Source of the DNA: a virus
Direction: 5' to 3' (one strand)
DNA: 42,126 nucleotides
Virus record (IMG/VR): IMGVR_UViG_3300008108_003243
Span: 1-42,126 of that record
In this document: positions 2,957-41,090 of the stretch, piece after piece
How positions within the stretch are numbered: position 1 is the stretch's first letter
Layout: the number at the start of each line of letters is the position of its first letter
Made by a program: the position numbers and the translations under genes
The notes under the pieces: generated by a model
The model's input: only the letters and a program-made list of their open reading frames with translations
The model's database searches: none
What the model was told of the DNA's origin: nothing

Positions 2957-3628
2957 TCAGTCAAAAATACGACCCCAACCATCGTTGCCACCTGGGCACC
3001 AGCGATGCTTGAGAACTGCTTTGGTGTAAATGGTCTTCTTGCCATTTGTCACTGGACCAGTATAGTTATCGTTGAGTGAACCATATGGATCATTGACATA
3101 ATATCCCTTGCCATCTGGAGTCTTGCCAATCACAACACACATGTGCCCACCAGTAGGTGCAGATAAAGAACCCCTGTGAAGGATACCAATAACGACAGGC
3201 TTCCCAGCATCGAGACTTTTATCAATATCAGCGAAAGAAAGATTGTAACTAAAGTGTGACTTAACTCCATAACCTGCCAGAACCTTCGTCTGTACCGCAT
3301 GGTCAGTAGTGTCACCAATCGCAAATACTTTCTTAACGTACTCATCGTCGCCTTTGATGCTTCCTGGCTTGAGGAACGCAAGACACATAGCGCACGATGA
3401 ACTATTGCAAGTTCTATGTGCATCTCTGTAATTGTCTACTTGATTGAAGTATGGAACTGCGAGAACTTCTGGAGTTGGAGGTTTTGTTCTGAACATTCCA
3501 ATCCAGTCAGTCTCTGAGTCATCCATAAACTCAGCAGGAAGGTTATCCTCTAACCACTGTACTGCTGCTACATGATTCGCATTACTATCATCATAAAATT
3601 TAAAAAAGTTATGAAGATCTAGGGTCAT
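2957..3628 (-). CDS. C39-like papain-fold peptidase with N-terminal shared module
   Basis: Residues 1-46 repeat the DLHNFFKFYD...AVQWLEDNLP module of the neighbouring lysozyme. The rest matches the peptidase C39-like fold: VPYFNQVDN, the likely nucleophile C74 in TCNSSS, the His H162 in GGHMCVVIG, and the Asp/Asn pair ND179-180 in YVNDPYGS. In phages this fold is usually a peptide-bond hydrolase or amidase acting on cell-wall cross-links. With a muramidase next door carrying the same N-terminus, a lytic or virion-associated wall role is the simplest reading. An exact T4 late promoter (TATAAATA) lies 26 bases upstream. Confidence 0.75.
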   Translation of the reverse strand: MTLDLHNFFKFYDDSNANHVAAVQWLEDNLPAEFMDDSETDWIGMFRTKPPTPEVLAVPYFNQVDNYRDAHRTCNSSSCAMCLAFLKPGSIKGDDEYVKKVFAIGDTTDHAVQTKVLAGYGVKSHFSYNLSFADIDKSLDAGKPVVIGILHRGSLSAPTGGHMCVVIGKTPDGKGYYVNDPYGSLNDNYTGPVTNGKKTIYTKAVLKHRWCPGGNDGWGRIFD

Positions 3629-15910: not shown

Positions 15911-15917
15911 TATTTAG
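15911..15917 (-). promoter_or_regulatory. Late promoter candidate (CTAAATA)
   Basis: CTAAATA on the minus strand begins 2 bases after the tRNA 3' end and lies 22 bases upstream of the 283-aa gene. Confidence 0.5.
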
Positions 15918-15918
15918 A

Positions 15919-16000
15919 TACCCAGTATAGGACTTGAACCTACACACATTAAAGTAACAGGACCTAAACCTGCCGCGTCTACCAATTCCGCCAACTGGGC
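15919..16000 (-). tRNA. tRNA-Leu (anticodon UAG)
   Basis: The cloverleaf is readable: acceptor GCCCAGT/ACTGGGT with discriminator A and no encoded CCA; D-arm GCG...CGC containing GAATTGGTAGA; anticodon stem with loop TTTAGGT giving UAG; a long variable arm typical of type II tRNAs; and a T-arm loop TTCAAGT. The length is 82 bases. The UAG anticodon reads CUN leucine codons. It sits between the Asp-hydroxylase-like gene and a late gene. Confidence 0.93.
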
Positions 16001-16002
16001 AA

Positions 16003-16635
16003 TTACAAAAAGTTTTGAGTATATTCTGTGTCTGTAATATAATCTATACACAGAACAGATCTACAAGAACTCATATTATTTTCTACCCTATGTTTAGACA
16101 TGGGGTGAAAAATGTAAAACTTCTTATTCTCAAATTTTTTAGTTTCTATATTTCCAGATTCATCCATTATTTGAATAAATGAATCTTTAGTATCATTAGG
16201 ATCTATGTCTAAACCCCATATGATTCTTAGTAATTGTACTCCTGGAATGTAGTCTTTGTCAACATGCCAATCAAGAGACTGTCCAGGATCCAATGCATTA
16301 ATTGCACATGCATCGGTCAATCCAACTTGCAGTAAAACATTAGTGAGTGTTGGAAGCACTCTCGTATTAAAATCTACCTCTGCCCTTTCTGCAAACAATG
16401 GTGCAAGATGCCATCCATATTTTGTTTGATCTCGTTTCTCTGCAGAAAAATAAGAAGAATATCCAATAGGATATCCTTCTCCACGGTTATCGATAAATCT
16501 TTCTTGTTGAGCAGTAAAATCTCTAAATTCTAAGTCATTTAAATTATTTTTATATTCTTGATGTATGGCATCATAATTTTGATTTAATATATCAAGATTT
16601 GGATAAACCTCTAAATGAGATAAGAATTTAGACAT
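16003..16635 (-). CDS. Aspartyl/asparaginyl beta-hydroxylase-like 2OG-Fe(II) oxygenase
   Basis: The C-terminal half has the hydroxylase pattern: H124-V-D126 in LDWHVDKDY, then LLRIIWGLDID, a strand ending FYIFHP, H182 in SKHRVENN, and R192 in CRSVLCIDY, the usual 2-oxoglutarate-binding Arg. An H...H pair plus Arg is characteristic of the AspH family. It probably oxidises a protein side chain or small substrate using 2-oxoglutarate and O2. The 210-aa length matches short phage and bacterial members. It is separated from mazG by 6 bases, with the tRNA directly downstream. Confidence 0.75.
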   Translation of the reverse strand: MSKFLSHLEVYPNLDILNQNYDAIHQEYKNNLNDLEFRDFTAQQERFIDNRGEGYPIGYSSYFSAEKRDQTKYGWHLAPLFAERAEVDFNTRVLPTLTNVLLQVGLTDACAINALDPGQSLDWHVDKDYIPGVQLLRIIWGLDIDPNDTKDSFIQIMDESGNIETKKFENKKFYIFHPMSKHRVENNMSSCRSVLCIDYITDTEYTQNFL

Positions 16636-17152: not shown

Positions 17153-18373
17153 TTAGTTTTGTCTAGTGTTTCCATAATGAATAACCTTTAAATTTTTTGA
17201 TTTAAATTTTCTCCACGGATCAACTACTACACTGCCTTCTGGAATTTCACAGTATAGTTCATCACTTTCTGGGGCATCCCAATACTTATATGTTGTAGTT
17301 GCGCTATGTGCTAACAAAAAAATTGCAGGTTTATCAGAAGTATAAACATCTCTTGTACCAGGATCAACATAAGAAACTGCTTTACCAAATTCTTTACAGT
17401 AGTGCCCTATCAACAAACTATAACTTCCATCAAGATGTTTAACTCTTGGTTTATATGATTTACCGTGAATAACAATAGGAAGATTATGTTGATTAGAAAG
17501 AGTTACTAGATACTCAGCAAGATTTTTTGCTTGAATTTCTCTAGACTTCATAACAGACTCAAACATATCATATCCCAAACCCAATTTTTGAGACAGATAT
17601 CTAAGTGCAATGTTATCTCTTGGATGACATGCGCCCCCATCACCCATACCTGCTGTCATATAGGATGAATTAATAATTCTAGTTCCAGCAGAACACAATG
17701 CATTCGTAACTACATCTACATTGATGTTGCCTTGTTTCATTGCAACATCCTGAATCATATTTACAAATCCAATTTTAGTACTAATAAAAGTATTATAAAA
17801 AACTTTTATACATTCACATTCATCCCACGTCCCTACAAAATATTTTGGATTATTCTCCATAATAGTTTTATAGAAGTTGATTAATTCTTTAGCATCTCCA
17901 GTAGTAGATCCATCTTCAGTACCAATCATAACCATTTCAGGATTGACCATATCCCACCCAACGGTCCCCATTGCAATCAAATATGGATTATAAACAAATC
18001 TTGCATTTGACATCAATGGAACAAACTGCTCTCTGGTAGTGCCAGGTAATACAGTAGATATTAATACAACTAATTGTCCTTTTGCTACGGAATTTACTTC
18101 GGTTAAACATTCCTTTACAATTGAATAATCAAAATCTTTTGGTTCTAAATGCATTGATGGAGTGCTTCCATCATAATCTGGATGATGTGGTGTTGGTACT
18201 GCAATAAAAATAATCTTGGATTTTTGAACTACCTCTTCTATTGAAGAGCAGATATTAATTAATCCACCACTGCGATATTCTACATCGTATCCATAAACGG
18301 TATGATTTTTAGTAGCAATTTCTGATGCACATGGCAATCCAAGTTTACCAAGACCAATAAATCCAATGTTCAT
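17153..18373 (-). CDS. UDP-glucose/GDP-mannose 6-dehydrogenase family protein
   Basis: The N-terminal Rossmann motif is GFIGLGKLGLP (residues 4-14). The central domain has NTFISTKIGFVN with K200. The catalytic cysteine is C249 in GDGGACHPRDN, and a C-terminal NAD-linked domain includes GKSYKPRVKHLDGS and VSYVDP. These match the nucleotide-sugar 6-dehydrogenase family, which oxidises UDP-glucose or a similar sugar to the uronic acid. The protein is 406 aa, near family length. It overlaps the amidinotransferase gene by ATGA. With five glycosyltransferases upstream it probably supplies an acidic sugar donor. The exact sugar cannot be told. Confidence 0.88.
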   Translation of the reverse strand: MNIGFIGLGKLGLPCASEIATKNHTVYGYDVEYRSGGLINICSSIEEVVQKSKIIFIAVPTPHHPDYDGSTPSMHLEPKDFDYSIVKECLTEVNSVAKGQLVVLISTVLPGTTREQFVPLMSNARFVYNPYLIAMGTVGWDMVNPEMVMIGTEDGSTTGDAKELINFYKTIMENNPKYFVGTWDECECIKVFYNTFISTKIGFVNMIQDVAMKQGNINVDVVTNALCSAGTRIINSSYMTAGMGDGGACHPRDNIALRYLSQKLGLGYDMFESVMKSREIQAKNLAEYLVTLSNQHNLPIVIHGKSYKPRVKHLDGSYSLLIGHYCKEFGKAVSYVDPGTRDVYTSDKPAIFLLAHSATTTYKYWDAPESDELYCEIPEGSVVVDPWRKFKSKNLKVIHYGNTRQN

Positions 18374-19335
18374 GCTTCTCTTTCTAGATCTAATGTTACG
18401 CAGTGGAATCCTCCACTAAGAGTTCTTTGGTGCCTCATTGGAAGCATTGCACATTCAATACCATAGGTCTCTAATATTTTTCTTGTTGGATGTTGATGCT
18501 CTTCCAATGCAACCAAATTTGGTGTAACACTAAACAAGTTCATGTTACACCACTCTGAAGCATTATTATAACCTGGATAGTATCCAATGTCTACTGGATC
18601 TGGGGCATTGATTATATCCCAAGTATTAAATGGATGTGGAAGCATATCTCTATTTTTAACTCTAGTTGGATTGACCATCATTAAACCCTCTCTTAAAAAT
18701 GCAATCGTTGTATCAATATGAACAAAAGTATAAATGTCTTTTACGATCCTTACTGTTGCTGTTGATCCAAGATGATTTTGAAGTATAGTTGCACCAGCAA
18801 CGTTTCCACTATTAGAGACCAAATACAAAACTTCATTGTTTGCACGTATTGCATTTGCCGCATCAAACGCTGGGGTAAGTTCTGTCAAAGCAAGAGTGTC
18901 TGGATCTCCAATACACTCTTCATTATAAAGATCCTCATGATATGAACATGGCATTTCAATTGGATTTGTAAGGTGATGTCTAAATGATCTCCAATTACCT
19001 CTTCTTGCTCTCAACGGTTGAGGAGTTGCAAGAGCAAGATCTCCATGTAAAAACACACAGTCTCTTGGGCAATAATTATAATACTTTGTCACTTCTCTTT
19101 TTGGTCTTAAAACGTCTACTCTTTCATTACGCAAAAAAGAACAAAAAGTCTCAAGATCTTCATTAGCTTCGTCAATAACTTGTTGTGGATATAATCCAGT
19201 TTTTACATCAGAAACGTCTTTAACTCCAGCATAATTAATTGTCCTCAAACTTTTGTCCATTACTGGAATTGTTGCATAGTCAGCAACACCAACAATTACC
19301 TTTTTTAATTTGTCCCATTCATTTTTTGCGTACAT
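18370..19335 (-). CDS. Arginine:glycine-type amidinotransferase
   Basis: The start YAKNEWDKLKKVIVG, then CPRDCVFLHGDLALATPQPLR, fits the glycine/inosamine amidinotransferase family. The catalytic triad is in place: D158 (PAFDAAN), H206 (FVHIDTT) and C312 (LSGGFHCVTLD). Family enzymes move the amidino group of arginine to an amine: glycine, giving guanidinoacetate, or an aminosugar. The length of 321 is slightly shorter than the vertebrate enzyme. Its position between a glycosyltransferase array and a nucleotide-sugar dehydrogenase makes an amino-sugar or glycan acceptor an attractive but unproven idea. Confidence 0.85.
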   Translation of the reverse strand: MYAKNEWDKLKKVIVGVADYATIPVMDKSLRTINYAGVKDVSDVKTGLYPQQVIDEANEDLETFCSFLRNERVDVLRPKREVTKYYNYCPRDCVFLHGDLALATPQPLRARRGNWRSFRHHLTNPIEMPCSYHEDLYNEECIGDPDTLALTELTPAFDAANAIRANNEVLYLVSNSGNVAGATILQNHLGSTATVRIVKDIYTFVHIDTTIAFLREGLMMVNPTRVKNRDMLPHPFNTWDIINAPDPVDIGYYPGYNNASEWCNMNLFSVTPNLVALEEHQHPTRKILETYGIECAMLPMRHQRTLSGGFHCVTLDLEREA

Positions 19336-19338
19336 AAT

Positions 19339-20142
19339 TCAACTCGTAGTTAAAACCATTTGATGATCATTATCTTTACCATATGTAAAGAACTCGTCCA
19401 AAGTAAATTTTAAATGCTCTTTCATCCACCAATAGTAATAGGCGCATCTAGATTTTTGATGGTGCAATCTATTGATTTCTATTCCATATTCAGTACTAGA
19501 TAACTTATTGTTTGTTGTGATTAATGGAATAGAATATGTTCTTCCCGTATGTCCTATAAAATAATCAACAGTGGTTGAAGATTTATTGAACTTATCTATA
19601 GCAACTGTTCTATCAAATTTATATTTTTCTCCTCGGCAGTGTAAATTCAATATCTTTTCAACATAATCCCTTGTCATCATAACAGGTCCAAAAAAACTAT
19701 GCCGCAATTTTGGATGTAAAAAGAATGGAATAAATTCTTGAGATTCAAATCCAAGTTGAATACAGTCCCAATCATATGGAAGTCTGTTCATAAGATATGT
19801 CCAATCAAAATTCCAATACTCCAATAAATTTAAATCATAATCATCTTCCATCAACAATAAGTATTCATCATCTCTAGTGTTTATCCATTTTTTCATAAAC
19901 TCTAGATGAGTTACAGCATTCCCTAATGCATATGCAGGTATTCCAGTGACCGCACCAACAACGTATTTTGATCCCCACTCATCAAGATTAGATGCTAAAA
20001 ATTTTGACGCAGAGATCCTCGTAAATTGTAACTTCCAATAATCAAACTGATCTTCCATATAAGTTCTTCGATCAGTTCTATTATCTAAATTTACATAGTG
20101 AATATGTGGAAAATTTTTAAGTTTATTTTTTAAATCCATCAT
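19339..20142 (-). CDS. GT25-like glycosyltransferase, paralogue A (intact motifs)
   Basis: The N-terminus has IHYVNLDNRTDRRTYMEDQF, the family signature for LPS-type glycosyltransferase family 25. LLMEDDYDL supplies the expected acidic metal/nucleotide motif (EDD). Shared landmarks with the other four copies are LPYDWDCIQLGFE, a FIPFFLHP stretch, VDYFIGHTGRTYSIPL and the C-terminal TLDEFFTYGKDND. It is 267 aa. The ATGATG start overlaps the preceding paralogue. Both signature motifs are intact, so it is probably active. The sugar donor and acceptor are unknown. Confidence 0.75.
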   Translation of the reverse strand: MMDLKNKLKNFPHIHYVNLDNRTDRRTYMEDQFDYWKLQFTRISASKFLASNLDEWGSKYVVGAVTGIPAYALGNAVTHLEFMKKWINTRDDEYLLLMEDDYDLNLLEYWNFDWTYLMNRLPYDWDCIQLGFESQEFIPFFLHPKLRHSFFGPVMMTRDYVEKILNLHCRGEKYKFDRTVAIDKFNKSSTTVDYFIGHTGRTYSIPLITTNNKLSSTEYGIEINRLHHQKSRCAYYYWWMKEHLKFTLDEFFTYGKDNDHQMVLTTS

Positions 20143-20945
20143 CTCAAATAATGTATAGTTTTCTTTACCATTCCCATATCATTCTGTTTTCCATATGTAA
20201 AAATCTCATCCAAATTATGTCGTTTACTATCATTCCTCCACCAATCATAATATGCTAGTCTACATGCCTTTACTATACTGTATCGTTTAGTATTCTTGCT
20301 AAAAAAGTCTGTATGATTTGGAAACATAGGTAAACAATATGTCTTGCCACAATGTCCTATAAAGTAATCAACTGTTCCCGAATTTAATCCAAAATTTTTA
20401 TTAGCAATATAATTTGTCAATTTATACCTTTCTTCTTGGCAATGTAGTTTGATTAATTTTTTAACATATCTTCTATTCAACATTGCCATACCAAAAGTAT
20501 GAGCTGGCATGATAGGGTGGAGATAAAATGGAATATAATTAATATTTTCAAATCCTAGCATTAAGCAGTCCCAATCATATGGGATTCTAGTATTAATGTA
20601 TTCCCAATCAAATTGCCAATAGATATCTAATCCAAAATCAATAGTATCTTTTGAAATAATAACTTTTTCTTCTTCAGTATTATAAAACCATTCCTTTAAA
20701 AACTCTAAAACTGTTATCGAATATGCAGCTGTTGTAACTGGCAATTTATAATTTTTTATATCAATCAATAAATTTTTCCATTCAGATACATTATCTTTAG
20801 TATATTTTGAAGTGGTTACTCTTTGATAATTTTCTACTTTTAAATTACTAAGACTTCTATCCATATGCTCATCCAAGTGAGCATTATTATCGGAATTAAA
20901 ATAATATATCGTTGGAATATTTTTTAGTTTATATTTTAAATCCAT
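20139..20945 (-). CDS. GT25-like glycosyltransferase paralogue B (degenerate motifs)
   Basis: It is clearly the same family as its neighbours (IPYDWDCLMLGFE, VDYFIGHCGKTYCLP, NLDEIFTYGKQND). The first signature has decayed to YYFNSDNNAHLDEHMDR, and the acidic EDD motif is replaced by KDT in VIISKDTIDF. The fold is probably kept, but metal-dependent transfer is doubtful unless other residues take over. It is the only copy preceded by a true gap (51 bases), which contains a late-like ATAAATA box. Confidence 0.7.
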   Translation of the reverse strand: MDLKYKLKNIPTIYYFNSDNNAHLDEHMDRSLSNLKVENYQRVTTSKYTKDNVSEWKNLLIDIKNYKLPVTTAAYSITVLEFLKEWFYNTEEEKVIISKDTIDFGLDIYWQFDWEYINTRIPYDWDCLMLGFENINYIPFYLHPIMPAHTFGMAMLNRRYVKKLIKLHCQEERYKLTNYIANKNFGLNSGTVDYFIGHCGKTYCLPMFPNHTDFFSKNTKRYSIVKACRLAYYDWWRNDSKRHNLDEIFTYGKQNDMGMVKKTIHYLR

Positions 20946-20986
20946 AATAATTTAAACTAACACATCATTAAATTTTTTCTTAAAAG

Positions 20987-20993
20987 TATTTAT
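20987..20993 (-). promoter_or_regulatory. Late-like box inside the glycosyltransferase array
   Basis: ATAAATA on the minus strand, 42 bases upstream of paralogue B. The distance is larger than for the other late promoters, so this is tentative. Confidence 0.35.
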
Positions 20994-20996
20994 GAG

Positions 20997-21899
20997 TCAT
21001 TTTCTAAAGTAATCAAGATACACTTCACCATACAATTCTGCACCCTTGTTTGTTATATCATATGTCCTAAATCTATCTGGTTTTAGAATCATTTTATCAT
21101 GTTCAATTGATCCAAATGTAAAAAATTGATCCAAGCTATAATTATCTCGTTCATGTTGCCACCAAAAATAATAGGTGTTTCTTGCCATAATATCACCCTC
21201 CTCTCTAAAAAATCTTTGGATGACACTATTATTTTCAAAACTACCAAAATTAGGATTTATTGTAATTAATGGCACACAATATGTTCTTCCAGTATGAACC
21301 ATAAAATAATCAACTGTTCCAGATCCAGCAACGTCATTTTGCCTATTCCATGCTGCATTACAGACAGTGTTGACTAACTTATATTGATCTCCAACACAAT
21401 GTAAGTCTAAAAGTTTTTCTACATAGTTCCTATTCAAAAGAACTGGACCGAAATCATGTGCATCTTCAATTGGATGTAAATGAAATCTTAATCCTGTTGG
21501 ATTCTCAAACCCCATTAAAAGACAATCCCAATCATAGGGTAATCTTTGAATCAGTTCATTCCAATCAAAATGCCAACGATCAATTAATCCAAGATCATAA
21601 TCATCTTCCATTAGAATTACATATGGATCTTTTGTATTTTTATACCAGTTCTTCAAGAAATCTAAATGAGTTACAGCATTTGCGGCGATAGGAACTAAAA
21701 GATGATAGTCTTCAATGTCAGATATCAAATGCTTCCATTTACCATTCTCAGACGCAAGGTATTTTGTTCCAGAGACTCTTGAATGCTGTATTCCATATTT
21801 TTTAAATTGCCTCTCCATCCACTTTCTTCTGTCATCTCGATTGTCAAGATTAAAAAAATAGACATGAGGCATACCTGCCAATTTATTTTCTATATCCAC
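20997..21899 (-). CDS. GT25-like glycosyltransferase, paralogue C (intact motifs, GTG start)
   Basis: Signature VYFFNLDNRDDRRKWMERQF and acidic motif VILMEDDYDL are both intact. LPYDWDCLLMGFE, VDYFMVHTGRTYCVPL and SLDQFFTFG follow. It is 300 aa, the longest of the five, with an extra 25-residue tail. Translation appears to start at a GTG (21899) overlapping the end of paralogue D by 10 bases. No in-frame ATG lies before the conserved N-terminus. It is probably active. Confidence 0.75.
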   Translation of the reverse strand: MDIENKLAGMPHVYFFNLDNRDDRRKWMERQFKKYGIQHSRVSGTKYLASENGKWKHLISDIEDYHLLVPIAANAVTHLDFLKNWYKNTKDPYVILMEDDYDLGLIDRWHFDWNELIQRLPYDWDCLLMGFENPTGLRFHLHPIEDAHDFGPVLLNRNYVEKLLDLHCVGDQYKLVNTVCNAAWNRQNDVAGSGTVDYFMVHTGRTYCVPLITINPNFGSFENNSVIQRFFREEGDIMARNTYYFWWQHERDNYSLDQFFTFGSIEHDKMILKPDRFRTYDITNKGAELYGEVYLDYFRK

Positions 21900-22771
21900 A
21901 ATAGAAGACCCTCAGATTTATCTTTAAAAACATATGGTTTTTTTGTAGATATATCAAACATCACTTCCATTCTCCACTCATCATTTTTATTATAATGAAA
22001 AAATTCAAAAGAAGAATAAGATTTGCTTCTTATTGACCACCAATAATCTATTGCCTCTGATGATAGCTTATCGACAAGATCATTAACAGTATCACTACCA
22101 ATAAACTCCTCATTTAAAGAAAATATTGGTAACGTATATGTAATTCCCAAATTATAAAAGAAGTTGTGGAGACCACCATATTCAAAATCTGGAATTGATT
22201 TATCTGGTGTATGATAGTGCAATAAAAATTTACCGTCTTTATAATGATAGTGCTTTAATCTTTTAGCAAAATATCTACTAATCATATAACAATGGCAAGA
22301 TCCACTGTCACTCTCCCATGGATGTAGATGCATTTTTATTTTTCTTTCTGCAGAACTAAAAAATTGAATGCAATCCCAATTGTATGGGAGATTTTTCATT
22401 AGTAGATTCCAGTCAAAAAGCCAATTATTAACTGCGTCAAATTTAATATTATCTTCCATAAAAATACAAATTTCAGATTCATTAGAATCATACCATTCTA
22501 TAACTGAGTTTATTGTATTTAATGTTAATGCCAGTTCTGATGGGGATTGTACTAAATTATCATCTAAAACTAAATCTTTCCACTCATTATAAGTTTCTTC
22601 TTTATACTTTTTTTCATGTCTTTTATAATCTTTAATTCCCCAACTCTTAAATTGATTTTCCATATACATCTTTTTATCAAGATGCTGATTATCATTTAAG
22701 TAAATTATTTTTGGAATTCCATCCAATTTACTTGATATAGTTTTAAAATTAATTTCTAATTCATCCATCAT
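21890..22771 (-). CDS. GT25-like glycosyltransferase paralogue D (degenerate motifs)
   Basis: An 11-residue N-terminal extension precedes IPKIIYLNDNQHLDKKMYMENQF, in which the N-L-D-x-R-x-D-R signature is lost. The acidic motif reads EDN (ICIFMEDNIKF) in place of EDD. The common frame is kept: LPYNWDCIQFF, a MHLHPWES stretch, and a SSFEFFHYNKNDE end. It is 293 aa. It overlaps paralogue E by ATGA. Activity is uncertain. Confidence 0.7.
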   Translation of the reverse strand: MMDELEINFKTISSKLDGIPKIIYLNDNQHLDKKMYMENQFKSWGIKDYKRHEKKYKEETYNEWKDLVLDDNLVQSPSELALTLNTINSVIEWYDSNESEICIFMEDNIKFDAVNNWLFDWNLLMKNLPYNWDCIQFFSSAERKIKMHLHPWESDSGSCHCYMISRYFAKRLKHYHYKDGKFLLHYHTPDKSIPDFEYGGLHNFFYNLGITYTLPIFSLNEEFIGSDTVNDLVDKLSSEAIDYWWSIRSKSYSSFEFFHYNKNDEWRMEVMFDISTKKPYVFKDKSEGLLLWI

Positions 22772-23646
22772 TTTGGCAATACCTTCTTATCATATTGTGG
22801 CAACTGAACCTGCATCATCTCATGTACAGATCCACCATAACTCAAGATATCATCAACACTATACTTATGACTATTATTTTCCCACCACTTTTTAGTGCAT
22901 GATGTTGCTAATATGTCGTAAATTTTATTATGGTATGCACTAATAATAGGATCATACTCTTCATCATTTTCTATATTTTCAATCCTATTATCTGGCGCTA
23001 TTGCTAGTTTTGGATCTAAACAAAATAATGGTAAAGTATATGATTTTCCTATTTGATACAATAAGAAGTCATCACTACTATAGGATTCCCTGGGAACTTT
23101 CATATCTCTTAGACTATTGTTAAGTTTAAAAGTTCCATCAGGTTTTAGATGTATCTTCATTAATTTCTCAACAAAAAATCTATTAACTATAAAACAAGCA
23201 GCAGAAGAACTATGCCATTCTCTTGGATGCAAATGCATTTTTAAAACATGATCATGACAATAGTAAAACTGAACAATATCCCAATTGTAAGGAAGTCTGC
23301 TCATTACAGTATTCCAATCAAAAGGCCAATATTCAACTAAATCAAAGCACAAATCATCTTGCACAATCATACAGATTTCAGATATTCCAGACTCATACCA
23401 TTCAATAAGTGTGGTAAATTCGTTCATCACAATTGATGCGTCTGATGGCGCTAACAACATAAGGTCTAACTTATGTGCCCATTCATCAATTTTAGCAGTG
23501 GAAAATCTAGATGCAGAAACTCTAGTAAAATCTGTTACTCCCCACTTTTTAAACTGACCCTCAATATGTTCCTTTCGATCGATCCTATGATCTAAATTAA
23601 GATAAAATATTGGAGGAAGACCTTTTAACTTATTATCTAAATTCAT
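22768..23646 (-). CDS. GT25-like glycosyltransferase paralogue E (partly altered acidic motif)
   Basis: The signature is well kept (IFYLNLDHRIDRKEHIEGQF). The acidic motif reads QDD (CMIVQDDLCF), and family landmarks LPYNWDIVQFY, MHLHPREW and SVDDILSYG are present. It is 292 aa. The first copy transcribed, it overlaps the aminotransferase gene by ATGA. Paralogues D and E share ESGISEICM/ESEICIF-type segments and HLHP wording, so they look like the closest pair. Confidence 0.73.
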   Translation of the reverse strand: MNLDNKLKGLPPIFYLNLDHRIDRKEHIEGQFKKWGVTDFTRVSASRFSTAKIDEWAHKLDLMLLAPSDASIVMNEFTTLIEWYESGISEICMIVQDDLCFDLVEYWPFDWNTVMSRLPYNWDIVQFYYCHDHVLKMHLHPREWHSSSAACFIVNRFFVEKLMKIHLKPDGTFKLNNSLRDMKVPRESYSSDDFLLYQIGKSYTLPLFCLDPKLAIAPDNRIENIENDEEYDPIISAYHNKIYDILATSCTKKWWENNSHKYSVDDILSYGGSVHEMMQVQLPQYDKKVLPK

Positions 23647-24239
23647 TTTTTAAATACTCTCATATCTGGCAAAAATGGATAATTCAAATAACAAAATCTT
23701 TTTGGTTCTTTTGATTTAACTTCTTCAAATTTTTGAATTCCCAGAGATGCTGTTTCTGGGGTCATATAATAATGATACCCTATGATATCTATATCCTGTT
23801 CTCCCCAAGGTTTATCATTAGTTCTACCATCATAAGACATTTTTTTAAGAGTATCATATGCATCTTTATTATCCAATAATATCATTCCACCTCGACCAAG
23901 ATTTAAATGCTTTTTAAATTGAAAACTCAAACACATATAAGTTCCAGGAATATATGTATTTTCTTCCCATAAAACAGCAGCATCAATTATATTAGTATTC
24001 CAAATATGATAATAATCGTGCCACTTATAATTTTTTTTCCAACTCCATTTTAACCCAAGTTTTTCTGCAATGAATGGTAACGATATGTAAGTTTGTTCAG
24101 GTATTTGTATTTGGTCATACTGTTCATATCTTAAGCACAACTCTATTGCGTGTGTACAACAATCAGTTGCTACAGCATAAGGAGAACCAAAATAATCTGC
24201 AATGGTTCTTTCAAATTTATCTACTATATCAAATTCCAT
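23643..24239 (-). CDS. Short DegT/DnrJ/EryC1/StrS-type aminotransferase
   Basis: Residues of about 20-40 carry PYAVATDCCTHAIELCLR, the start of the PLP fold-type I domain. CLSFQFKKHLNLGRGGMI carries the likely PLP-binding lysine, with the spacing S-F-x-x-x-K and the following G-R-G-G. Family members make amino sugars from keto-sugar nucleotides and are usually about 370-400 aa. This one has 198 and lacks most of the C-terminal small domain. It could be a compact phage form or a remnant. It overlaps the sulfotransferase by 11 bases. Confidence 0.75.
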   Translation of the reverse strand: MEFDIVDKFERTIADYFGSPYAVATDCCTHAIELCLRYEQYDQIQIPEQTYISLPFIAEKLGLKWSWKKNYKWHDYYHIWNTNIIDAAVLWEENTYIPGTYMCLSFQFKKHLNLGRGGMILLDNKDAYDTLKKMSYDGRTNDKPWGEQDIDIIGYHYYMTPETASLGIQKFEEVKSKEPKRFCYLNYPFLPDMRVFKK

Positions 24240-24960
24240 TTTCGTACATCTCAAAGTCATCTTGATAGAGAGTTTTAAATTCTGTCAAATTAGTTTCAAC
24301 ATATTCTTGATAGATCTTTTTACATATTGCAGTATAATTTGGCATAAAATATTTTGAATTTCTCAAATGTGGAATTTGTAATGATTTATATCTAATTTGC
24401 AATTCTTCAGAAATATTATTTTTTATAAAAGAATTAATTTTTTCGTTTAAATTATTATCTAATTTTATTAATGTAAGATCGCCATTATTTTCAAAACACA
24501 ATCTTAAAAAATTTTTTTGGGGAGCAGTATGTTCATCGTAAATATATTTTTTATTTTGAACTTGTTTAACAACCCATTCTATTGGTGGTTTATATCTACA
24601 CATGAATTCATTTAATCCAGATATCCATCTACTAACTGGATCTCTAGTTATTGCAAAAAATTTATGATCGGACTCTACAAAATATTGTGCTAAAAAATCT
24701 GGATCTTTTGCTCTTGGTAATTTATCTAATGGCATAAAATATTGACATTGAGTATCAAATGCAGTTGTAACAGATGTACTTCCACATTTATCAATGTGCA
24801 TATAAACTAGTTTATAGTCCTTAGACCAATAACAATTTATAAATCCTTCTTTATGTATTGCTTGTCCAGGAATTCCCTTTTGCAATTTAAATGTAAAAGT
24901 AGAGCAATATTTAGAATGTTGCTCTACAATATCATCTATTACTGCTCTTCTTTTTTGCAT
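24229..24960 (-). CDS. Sulfotransferase family protein
   Basis: The 5'-phosphosulfate loop is visible at residues 55-68 (HIDKCGSTSVTTAF). The 3'-phosphate-binding motif is at about 103-116 (AITRDPVSRWISGL, R106 and the Ser). These are the two PAPS-binding landmarks of the cytosolic/Golgi-type fold. It would move sulfate from PAPS to a hydroxyl, plausibly on a sugar. It lies in the glycan island and overlaps the 2OG-oxygenase gene by 22 bases. No membrane anchor is seen. The substrate is unknown. Confidence 0.82.
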   Translation of the reverse strand: MQKRRAVIDDIVEQHSKYCSTFTFKLQKGIPGQAIHKEGFINCYWSKDYKLVYMHIDKCGSTSVTTAFDTQCQYFMPLDKLPRAKDPDFLAQYFVESDHKFFAITRDPVSRWISGLNEFMCRYKPPIEWVVKQVQNKKYIYDEHTAPQKNFLRLCFENNGDLTLIKLDNNLNEKINSFIKNNISEELQIRYKSLQIPHLRNSKYFMPNYTAICKKIYQEYVETNLTEFKTLYQDDFEMYENGI

Positions 24961-25490
24961 AATGATAATGTTGCTGTAATTTGCATCGTATATCTATCTT
25001 CCATCCCAAGATTGGCAGCTAAATGAGAGGTGTCTCCTCTCCACCAAACATAGTTTCCCTTTTGCCATTTAACATAAGGTTCTCTATTCAATTCAAAATA
25101 ATGTCCAGTTTTCCAGTCATCTAAAAATATTAAAATCCTACAAATATTATTTACATCTGGTTCACCGTATATTTCTCTAAACCTAGGATAAGTATCCTCA
25201 TGCTCTGGCATGATTGTTCCTGGAGGCATACAATAAAGAGACAATGAGGTATCTTTTAGGAAATACCAATTGTCTCCGTCTTGAATATACTTTTTTTTAA
25301 ATACTTTTACAATATCATGGGACCATTCTGGAACACCGCGATATTCTTCTCTTAGAAGTCCAGTATAATTTACATAAAGATGTCCACGTTTTTTCCAAGA
25401 TTCTACAATCTCATCACTAGGAAATTGCCTTCTTGCTGGATATTCTATGGATTTAAAATCTCCAATTAATTCTGGATTTATTTTCTTCAT
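24939..25490 (-). CDS. 2OG-Fe(II) oxygenase-like protein (183 aa)
   Basis: A double-stranded beta-helix pattern is present: SLYCMPPGTIMPEHEDTYPR with H97-x-D99, CRILIFLDDW, a turn before GNYVWWRGDTSH with H156, and DRYTMQITATL with R166. The HxD...H triad plus Arg is the 2-oxoglutarate-dependent oxygenase signature. The ATG at 25490 lies right after the helicase stop. It is the first gene of the accessory island. A protein or small-molecule hydroxylase role is likely, with unknown substrate. Confidence 0.7.
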   Translation of the reverse strand: MKKINPELIGDFKSIEYPARRQFPSDEIVESWKKRGHLYVNYTGLLREEYRGVPEWSHDIVKVFKKKYIQDGDNWYFLKDTSLSLYCMPPGTIMPEHEDTYPRFREIYGEPDVNNICRILIFLDDWKTGHYFELNREPYVKWQKGNYVWWRGDTSHLAANLGMEDRYTMQITATLSLCKKEEQ

Positions 25491-25491
25491 A

Positions 25492-26388
25492 TTATTCAAA
25501 ATTAAAAGCACTAAATTTATTTTTTAATGAAGATTTTTTTTCTTCATACTCATACTCTTCTTCATGACCATTATTTACAATATCATTTTGAGCACTTTGT
25601 TCACAATCATACAATCTCATCTTTGCTCTGTCAATACCAAGAACAAACCGTTTATAGATTGTAGGATCATTATATCTATTCTTAAGTTGCTTCACCATAA
25701 TTTGTCCCAACTGCTCCAACTCTTCTGTACTAATAAGAGCAAACATAAGATCGGCAGTAGCAGGCAAACCAAAGGATTCAGAAGTATCAGTAAGTTCAAC
25801 ATCAGAATTGCCATAACCTGAACGAGTAGTCTGAGTGGCAGACACAATGGGTACATTAAATTCCACTGCGAGACCCCTAAGCTCTTCCGCGATTGCTTTG
25901 ACGAAAGTATAAGAGTTGATATTACTATTTCCCCTATACCTAGAGGAAGCACAAATATTGAGATAATCAATAAAAATAATATCAGGTCTAAATGACTTCT
26001 TAAGTGCAAGTTCATTAAGAAGTGCTTTAAAATGACCAGCATGTGCAGATGCAGTCGGATACTCTTTAATTATAAGATGACCCTTTGTTTTGTTAACAAG
26101 ATTGTTAATCTTTGTCTCAAACATTTGTTTTGGTAGATCAATCAATTCTTGGATTGGGACATTAAGAAGGTTGGCGTCAATTCGTTCAGCAATTCGTTCC
26201 TCCGCCATTTCAAGAGTGATGTAGAGAACGTTCCTGCTTTGCAATAAGACGGAAGCAGCAACATGGCACATAAAGAGACTTTTTCCGACACCCGTACCAG
26301 CAAGAGCGACATTGAGAGTCTTATTAGGTAAACCACCTTTTGTGATTTTGTTAAAGTATTCAAGGTCAGAAGTCATAGCGTTCTTCAT
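25492..26388 (-). CDS. 41: Replicative helicase gp41, C-terminal (motor) fragment
   Basis: This is the RecA-like motor of the DnaB/gp41 helicase: KITKGGLPNKTLNVALAGTG, Walker A GTGVGKS (31-37), IIFIDYLNI as Walker B, SATQTTR and the late KNRY/arginine region. It lacks the N-terminal domain, which lies in another frame just upstream and stops at 26366. Likely starts are the ATG at 26388 or the one at 26376. In full-length family members about ten more residues join the halves. The fragment overlaps the N-terminal part by 23 bases. It could be translated by coupling or be the product of a broken gene. Confidence 0.8.
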   Translation of the reverse strand: MKNAMTSDLEYFNKITKGGLPNKTLNVALAGTGVGKSLFMCHVAASVLLQSRNVLYITLEMAEERIAERIDANLLNVPIQELIDLPKQMFETKINNLVNKTKGHLIIKEYPTASAHAGHFKALLNELALKKSFRPDIIFIDYLNICASSRYRGNSNINSYTFVKAIAEELRGLAVEFNVPIVSATQTTRSGYGNSDVELTDTSESFGLPATADLMFALISTEELEQLGQIMVKQLKNRYNDPTIYKRFVLGIDRAKMRLYDCEQSAQNDIVNNGHEEEYEYEEKKSSLKNKFSAFNFE

Positions 26389-40386: not shown

Positions 40387-41067
40387 TCAGGTAGTGGGAC
40401 ACTTCAACAAGTGTCCTGGTCTCCCAACGACCCACCCATCACCAGGACACTCATACGAAAGTTTTGTTTTAATACCATTATTCCACCATTTTCTACCTTT
40501 TCTTATTTCACTTTGTTTTTTCCTGGTTTCATCACTAACAACTTTACCCAAGTTGTTTTTTCTTGATTTTTCAGCAAACTCTTTTGTTTTATATTTTTTA
40601 CATTCTTTGGTAAATAATCTACCCAATACCCAACCATCACCAGGACATTCAATAGTGTGTTTATCTACCTCACCATTATTCCACCACCTCCTTTGTGATA
40701 CTTGTTGCGAAACTTTTTTCTTATGTTCTTCCGTAAGAGTTTTTCCTGTATTAACTTCTTTTGTCCTTTGAATACAGTATTCACTTGTTTTTCTACCTGA
40801 AGTTCCTTCTCCACCATAAGACATATTGATTAATATACCACCTTCACTTTTCAAACCTAAAATAGTGATAATATAGTTTTCGTGTTTATAAGCGTCAAAC
40901 TCTTTTAGATTTTTCTTTAAAAAAAGCACCCTATCTCTTGGTGGAGAAGACATATAAGTATCACCTCTTCTATGAGAACGATATGCCCTATTATTAATAC
41001 CCTTACCAACATAATAAGGGGTCATATCTTCTCTCAACCAGGCATAGGTATAATAAGTATTTTTCAT
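40387..41067 (-). CDS. GIY-YIG homing-type endonuclease with duplicated WWNNG modules
   Basis: N-terminal YYTYAWLRED...PYYVGKG is the GIY-YIG core (about residues 4-23). GKTLTEEHKKKVSQ (about 108-121) is a NUMOD3-type DNA-binding motif. Two copies of WWNNG...ECPGDGWVxGR (about 126-150 and 192-217) follow, the second in the tail. This is the form of free-standing phage homing endonucleases. It has a late-like TATAAATA just upstream. The ATG at 41067 is the first with a fitting N-terminus. A 20-base inverted repeat (GGACACTT...AAGTGTCC, 40397-40416) overlaps its 3' end. Confidence 0.8.
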   Translation of the reverse strand: MKNTYYTYAWLREDMTPYYVGKGINNRAYRSHRRGDTYMSSPPRDRVLFLKKNLKEFDAYKHENYIITILGLKSEGGILINMSYGGEGTSGRKTSEYCIQRTKEVNTGKTLTEEHKKKVSQQVSQRRWWNNGEVDKHTIECPGDGWVLGRLFTKECKKYKTKEFAEKSRKNNLGKVVSDETRKKQSEIRKGRKWWNNGIKTKLSYECPGDGWVVGRPGHLLKCPTT

Positions 41068-41090
41068 TAGGGACACGCACTATACACTAT

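Follow-up and report, generated by a model that had tools for sequence, protein, structure and literature searches.

A conserved tandem array of GT25-like glycosyltransferase genes in T4-like cyanophages, combining probably catalytic copies with putative pseudo-glycosyltransferases

Introduction

Why would a cyanophage keep five related glycosyltransferase (GT) genes in a row, when several of them have altered catalytic motifs? The question is raised by positions 19339-23646 of the virus record IMGVR_UViG_3300008108_003243, a stretch of 42,126 nucleotides that is called the window here. A preliminary description, made from the letters alone, had seen five tandem paralogues of the GT25 family, with decay in three of them, in what it took to be a small genome. 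The genome is not small. The DNA polymerase encoded in the window shares 83% identity with its counterpart in Synechococcus phage S-SRM01, which identifies the 42 kb record as a fragment of a T4-like cyanomyovirus, and the T4-like cyanophage relatives have genomes of 140-250 kb. Comparison across virus records shows that the array is a real, well-conserved system, a known enzyme family in a new arrangement, and no description of such a GT array was found in the open-licence literature. It is considered fairly probable that a conserved cyanophage cassette builds and transfers a decorated glycan, and that the array is its GT core, composed of catalytic enzymes and pseudo-glycosyltransferases.

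The array and its enzyme family

The five genes are consecutive, nearly overlapping and intact open reading frames (ORFs) on the minus strand, transcribed in the order E-D-C-B-A (aa, amino acids):

22768-23646, minus: GT copy E, 292 aa, opening the array; NLDHRxDR retained, QDD fixed; probably catalytic
21890-22771, minus: GT copy D, 293 aa; degenerate donor motifs, fastest evolving; possible pseudo-glycosyltransferase
20997-21899, minus: GT copy C, 300 aa, starting with GTG; neither donor motif altered; probably catalytic
20139-20945, minus: GT copy B, 268 aa; EDD replaced by Lys/Arg-Asp-X and first motif missing; apparently a maintained pseudo-glycosyltransferase
19339-20142, minus: GT copy A, 267 aa, closing the array; neither donor motif altered; probably catalytic

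That these are five paralogues with a common layout was borne out by the ORFs, by the phrog_2835 'glucosyltransferase' profile, which matches all five copies (E = 1e-25 to 5e-48), and by full-length alignments (26-45% identity to A, far beyond chance). Members of phrog_2835 turned up in 97 records of cyanophages or marine viruses. Few parts of the window are as rich in AT as the array region, which has a GC content of 0.31-0.32 vs 0.32-0.43 elsewhere.

The Pfam GT25 profile (PF01755) gave 17.6 bits for A and C, under its gathering cut-off of 24, and the same search returned no match for B, D and E. The GT25 relationship was upheld by structure and by profile comparison. AlphaFold2 monomer models made for A and B are confident (predicted local distance difference test scores of 93.3 and 93.2). 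Foldseek placed mimivirus R655, human COLGALT1 and bacterial beta-1,4-galactosyltransferases at the top of the PDB matches of the A model (E 1e-9 to 2e-6), and R655 (E 6e-7) and bacterial beta-1,4-galactosyltransferases first for the B model, with moderate TM-scores (~0.5) for both. R655 is also hit by a profile of 74 A/C/E-type relatives (E 1e-4), in an alignment that pairs NLDxRxDR and EDD with the corresponding motifs of R655. The array copies have a GT25-like (GT-A) fold, as predicted by the models of A and B.

Age, spread and selection

A search of IMG/VR gave 76 loci. The order E-D-C-B-A or E-D-C-F-B-A is found in 41 of them, the window included, with a sixth copy, F, between C and B in 18 of the 41. 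The unusual copy number noted at the outset is thus rare among isolates, where one array phage was found, but common in IMG/VR. A tree built from 152 proteins sets each of the five copies apart on one side of a branch (Shimodaira-Hasegawa-like approximate likelihood ratio test, SH-aLRT, support of 93, 90, 97, 99 and 100 for A to E), and the single-copy GT25 proteins of cyanophages form a separate group (SH-aLRT 99). Since each copy is one clade across many phages, the duplications are ancient, older than the divergence of these phages, and a recent local duplication, which the preliminary description implied, is rejected.

Purifying selection acts on all copies. For pairs with a synonymous divergence (dS) of 0.05-0.5, the median ratio of non-synonymous to synonymous divergence (dN/dS) is 0.07 for A, 0.08 for B, 0.15 for C, 0.12 for D, 0.125 for E and 0.27 for F; over all measurable pairs, in which synonymous sites are near saturation, it is 0.24, 0.28, 0.24, 0.49 and 0.21 for A to E. 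The reading frames of A, B, C and E are intact across the array loci. That of D is broken in 2 of the 41 loci, by a stop in L025 and by a one-base gap in L032, which are either real or sequencing errors. The first half of B has no extra relaxation beyond that of A (dN/dS ratio 1.26 vs 1.22).

Motifs copy by copy

The motif calls first made for the window were all correct: A has NLDNRTDR and EDD, C has NLDNRDDR and EDD, B has NSDNNAHL and KDT, D has NDNQHLDK and EDN, and E has NLDHRIDR and QDD, so that only A and C keep both motifs unchanged and B and D have lost the first signature. The other shared motifs, given as LPY(D/N)WD, HLHP/FLHP and a FFTYG-like C-terminal end, are largely as described, except that B reads IPYDWD and YLHP and that the FFTYG end, clear in A-C, is loose in D (EFFHYNK) and E (DILSYGG).

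Counts of loci include near-identical contigs, and distinct sequences number 29-32 per copy. NLDxRxDR and EDD are present in 59/59 distinct orthologues of A and C (C 30/30). In E, the N, D, R and R of the first motif and the QDD triplet are all present in 29/29. The Gln of E is a derived state, because its relatives in a second lineage of array phages carry EDD, and the retention of both aspartates suggests that E is probably active. Counting E among the degenerate copies was therefore mistaken: its first signature is kept and its single changed residue is identical in all orthologues.

Copy B differs in kind. A basic residue replaces the Glu of EDD in 30/30 distinct orthologues (17 Arg, 13 Lys), the third Asp is never present, R22 is found in 0/30 and D24 in ~1/30. 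Other residues of B are kept in every sequence (D100, D103, Y123, D124, W125, D126, G131, E133, H143, K163, H168, D193, Y194, F195, G200, T202, Y203, P206, W238, W239 and G255). Positions conserved in A and C are kept by B in 28 of 43 cases after residue 105 vs 8 of 26 before it (Fisher p 0.007), a tendency also seen in D and F and absent in E. By analogy with the GT-A family, the first and second halves would be the donor and acceptor sides. Judged from these residues, B is a maintained paralogue predicted to be non-catalytic, whose second half is the presumed acceptor side. D has lost most of the conserved first-half positions and many of the second-half ones too. The earlier proposal of duplication followed by diversification or loss of catalysis thus stands as regards the tandem paralogy and the loss of donor motifs in B and D, but not as regards decay or recent duplication. 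Among the roles it offered (assembly of a multi-sugar chain, glycosylation of several virion sites, or non-catalytic binding forms), the last suits B best.

A conserved cassette around the array

The array is flanked on both sides by genes of sugar and protein-hydroxylation type:

24939-25511, minus: putative 2-oxoglutarate/Fe(II) oxygenase of the Asp/Asn beta-hydroxylase type; HxD...H...R invariant
24229-24960, minus: sulfotransferase (PF03567, E 8e-8; 42 loci), part of the cassette in the window's lineage
23643-24260, minus: short DegT/StrS-type aminotransferase, 205 aa, overlapping the start of E (PF01041, E 1.6e-16)
18370-19335, minus: amidinotransferase of the inosamine-phosphate type (StrB1-like), directly downstream of the array
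17153-18373, minus: UDP-glucose dehydrogenase (Pfam and phrog_9148, E 2e-96; 42 loci), after the amidinotransferase in the window's lineage
16003-16635, minus: second putative Asp/Asn beta-hydroxylase (PF05118, E 8e-11; 19 loci), a few genes downstream and more loosely associated

Clustering of the neighbouring genes at 78 array loci found the short DegT gene in 71, the amidinotransferase in 69 and the oxygenase in 69, several of the exceptions being contigs too short to tell. A reverse search from the amidinotransferase gave 80 loci, many on contigs common to the first search. Among the 65 with at least 7 kb upstream, GT copies are present in 64 (three or more in 63) and the other two partners in 63 each. 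In isolate phages, the oxygenase was found only in Synechococcus phage S-SCSM2R; the aminotransferase and amidinotransferase were found in no other cyanophage, nor was an array of several GT copies found in any other isolate.

The active-site residues of the three partners are conserved. The amidinotransferase is closest to the inosamine-phosphate amidinotransferase of streptomycin synthesis: its profile matches 1bwd over 317 positions (E 9e-73). HC, HxD and FDAAN motifs are conserved, and the catalytic residues D158, H206-x-D208 and H311-C312 are conserved in at least 97% of sequences. The short DegT protein resembles sugar aminotransferases in the PDB and conserves D93 and the pyridoxal phosphate lysine K117; at ~200 aa vs the usual ~370, it lacks the usual C-terminal part. 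In the oxygenase, the iron triad H104, D106 and H163 and the 2-oxoglutarate arginine R173 are conserved; PF05118 matches 15/18 members, and the window's own copy has no Pfam match. In the second lineage (L048, L053-L081), the cassette is placed after genes related to cyanophage tail-fibre proteins and may include a carbamoyltransferase.

Several side observations concern these genes and their surroundings. Upstream of one second-lineage cassette (L059:375-4195), paired radical SAM/SPASM-type genes lie beside fibre-like genes and may represent a further protein modification. The same short DegT aminotransferase (53% identity) is found in a 642 kb uncultured phage (LR756502, L133:8001-8591), among sugar genes that include a UDP-glucose-dehydrogenase-like ORF; no GT array was detected there. 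In Flavobacterium phage immuto (L134), a mannosyltransferase gene and that of a 'pilin glycosylation protein' enclose a short DegT gene (31% identity); the short form may be a more widespread component of phage glycosylation. Elsewhere in the window, a tRNA-Leu gene (15917-16001, minus) lies just downstream of the cassette, tRNA genes being a usual landing place of mobile islands, and an ORF at 40387-41076 (minus) matches homing/HNH endonucleases. The adjacent ORFs 2269-2937 and 2957-3628 (minus) each match one half of the endolysin-like 405-aa family phrog_3617: either a stop or frameshift has split a gene here, or the assembly is wrong.

Proposed role and alternatives

If the array is the GT core of a glycan cassette, A, C and E would each transfer one sugar, in turn, from a nucleotide-sugar donor. 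B would no longer bind a metal-UDP-sugar but would retain an acceptor-side pocket, and would either assist A or C as a non-catalytic partner or chaperone or serve as a subunit that binds glycan or protein; D may play a similar role under weaker constraint. The aminotransferase and amidinotransferase would supply or finish a sugar or cyclitol that bears amino or guanidino groups. The acceptor would most likely be a phage fibre protein, possibly at a residue hydroxylated by the oxygenase, with a host surface glycan as second choice. The fibre is favoured because of the position of the cassette in the second lineage, the kinship of GT25 to collagen glycosyltransferases and the hydroxylase-like gene. 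A more specific form of this proposal, in which B, and perhaps D, would hold the acceptor as pseudo-glycosyltransferases and direct A, C and E to put a guanidino-sugar glycan on hydroxylated fibre residues, is speculative and rather improbable as a whole. If true, such an acceptor-guiding complex would be a bacteriophage analogue of collagen hydroxylation and GT25 glycosylation.

Several points weigh against the proposal. The cassette is adjacent to fibre genes in the second lineage only, and in the window's lineage the array follows a gp41-like helicase gene. A scan of the window found no late-promoter-like TATAAATA near the array or cassette; with five TATAAATA sites in the window vs 3.7 expected, this is uninformative on a virion role. 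Where cyanophages have an ordinary single GT25 gene, it mostly closes a sugar or lipopolysaccharide (LPS)-type cluster, which favours a cell-surface or LPS-like target. As the TM-scores are only moderate, the roles of the donor and acceptor pockets are assigned by analogy within the GT family. Finally, D alone among A to E shows signs of relaxed selection: its overall dN/dS and its two broken frames fit partial relaxation.

The strongest alternative, possible though less probable, is that the cassette remodels the LPS or another surface glycan of the host, for superinfection exclusion or receptor masking, and leaves virions unmodified. UDP-glucose dehydrogenase, sulfotransferase and aminotransferase are typical surface-glycan genes, and the location of the isolates' single GT25 genes points the same way. 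However, none of the annotated genes of the cassette was recognised as a lipid-carrier transferase, flippase or polymerase, the second-lineage cassette adjoins fibre-like genes, and the nearest solved structures include protein (collagen) glycosyltransferases.

Another alternative concerns B, and perhaps D, which would be catalytic but metal-independent, the Lys or Arg that replaces the Glu of EDD standing in for the Mn2+ charge. Basic residues do replace the metal charge in some metal-independent GT-A enzymes. In B, the basic residue is fixed, D100, D103 and most second-half residues are kept, and weak Foldseek matches include the metal-independent GT-A enzyme 4ayl and its relative 4cj8. But the NLDxRxDR signature, thought to hold the nucleotide, is lost in B as well, and we know of no metal-independent GT25 enzyme, which makes a catalytic B unlikely.

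Ongoing decay, in which B, D and E would be dying copies left by duplication, is very improbable: the loss of motifs, the overall dN/dS and interrupted frames of D and a badly interrupted GT copy on a sister contig (L078/L132) fit it, but the array is syntenic in 41 loci with intact A, B, C and E frames, every copy has a low dN/dS among pairs of low dS, and the altered residues have stayed fixed throughout the divergence of the orthologues, which largely refutes decay for B and E and leaves it weak for D. On the L132 contig, a GT copy has many internal stops and the amidinotransferase is split into two ORFs, which reflects a genuine loss of the cassette or errors in sequencing. DNA glucosylation was considered for the phrog_2835 name and the T4-like phage; no base-hydroxylating partner was recognised, without direct test, and the neighbours are instead sugar and protein-hydroxylase-like genes. 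Recent uptake from a bacterial host was rejected, as a scan of genome contigs gave only a distant relative in Cucumibacter marinus (28% identity).

A cyanophage glycan cassette remains the preferred reading. The single GT25 genes of cyanophages have been catalogued, yet they are unexplained. In one lineage the family has grown into a set of fixed order and long conservation, and at least one of its members, though under strong selection, has exchanged its metal-site residues for a fixed basic triplet. Such a natural series lends itself to the question of what pseudo-glycosyltransferases do. From the aminotransferase, amidinotransferase and hydroxylase-like genes linked to it, a specific and unusual chemistry is predicted.

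Comparison with known systems

The closest relatives are the single-copy GT25 proteins of cyanophages (T4-GC 266; P-SSM2, S-SM2, S-SSM7 and others), which share phrog_2835, a similar length and EDD with the array. Unlike the array genes, they normally occur singly, closing a sugar/LPS cluster in the vicinity of hli/psbA/pstS genes, and they form a clade apart; several array phages keep such an ordinary single gene elsewhere, in addition to the array. R655, COLGALT1/GLT25D1 and the bacterial beta-1,4-galactosyltransferases have a GT-A fold like that predicted for the array, and the NLxxRxDR and EDD motifs of R655 align with it. Human GT25 enzymes are two-domain proteins. Identity to solved GT25 enzymes is 15-19%, and the array differs from them in having conserved motif-dead members.

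Among cultured phages, S-SCSM2R (PQ898602), grown on Synechococcus WH7803, has four GT genes of the array type, accompanied by the same three partners (short DegT, amidinotransferase and oxygenase). Its cassette has another set of copies, with no A-E order and one very divergent member, and lacks the sulfotransferase and UDP-glucose dehydrogenase. The pairing of a DegT-type aminotransferase with an inosamine-phosphate-type amidinotransferase is that of streptomycin-type aminocyclitol pathways; the likeness would be one of function only, since the array aminotransferase is only ~200 aa long and no other part of the streptidine pathway was found.

For B, the nearest parallel is human CEECAM1 (CERCAM), a conserved GT25 paralogue that is inactive in a collagen galactosyltransferase assay and has an incomplete DXD (PMC3244457). 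Both are homologues of active GT25 enzymes retained with an incomplete DXD, a likeness in the way they may work and not orthology: CEECAM1 lost its second DXD by an Asp to Ser change (PMC3244457), and the change in B is Glu to Lys/Arg. As CEECAM1 exists in animals, B is not without parallel (PMC3244457).

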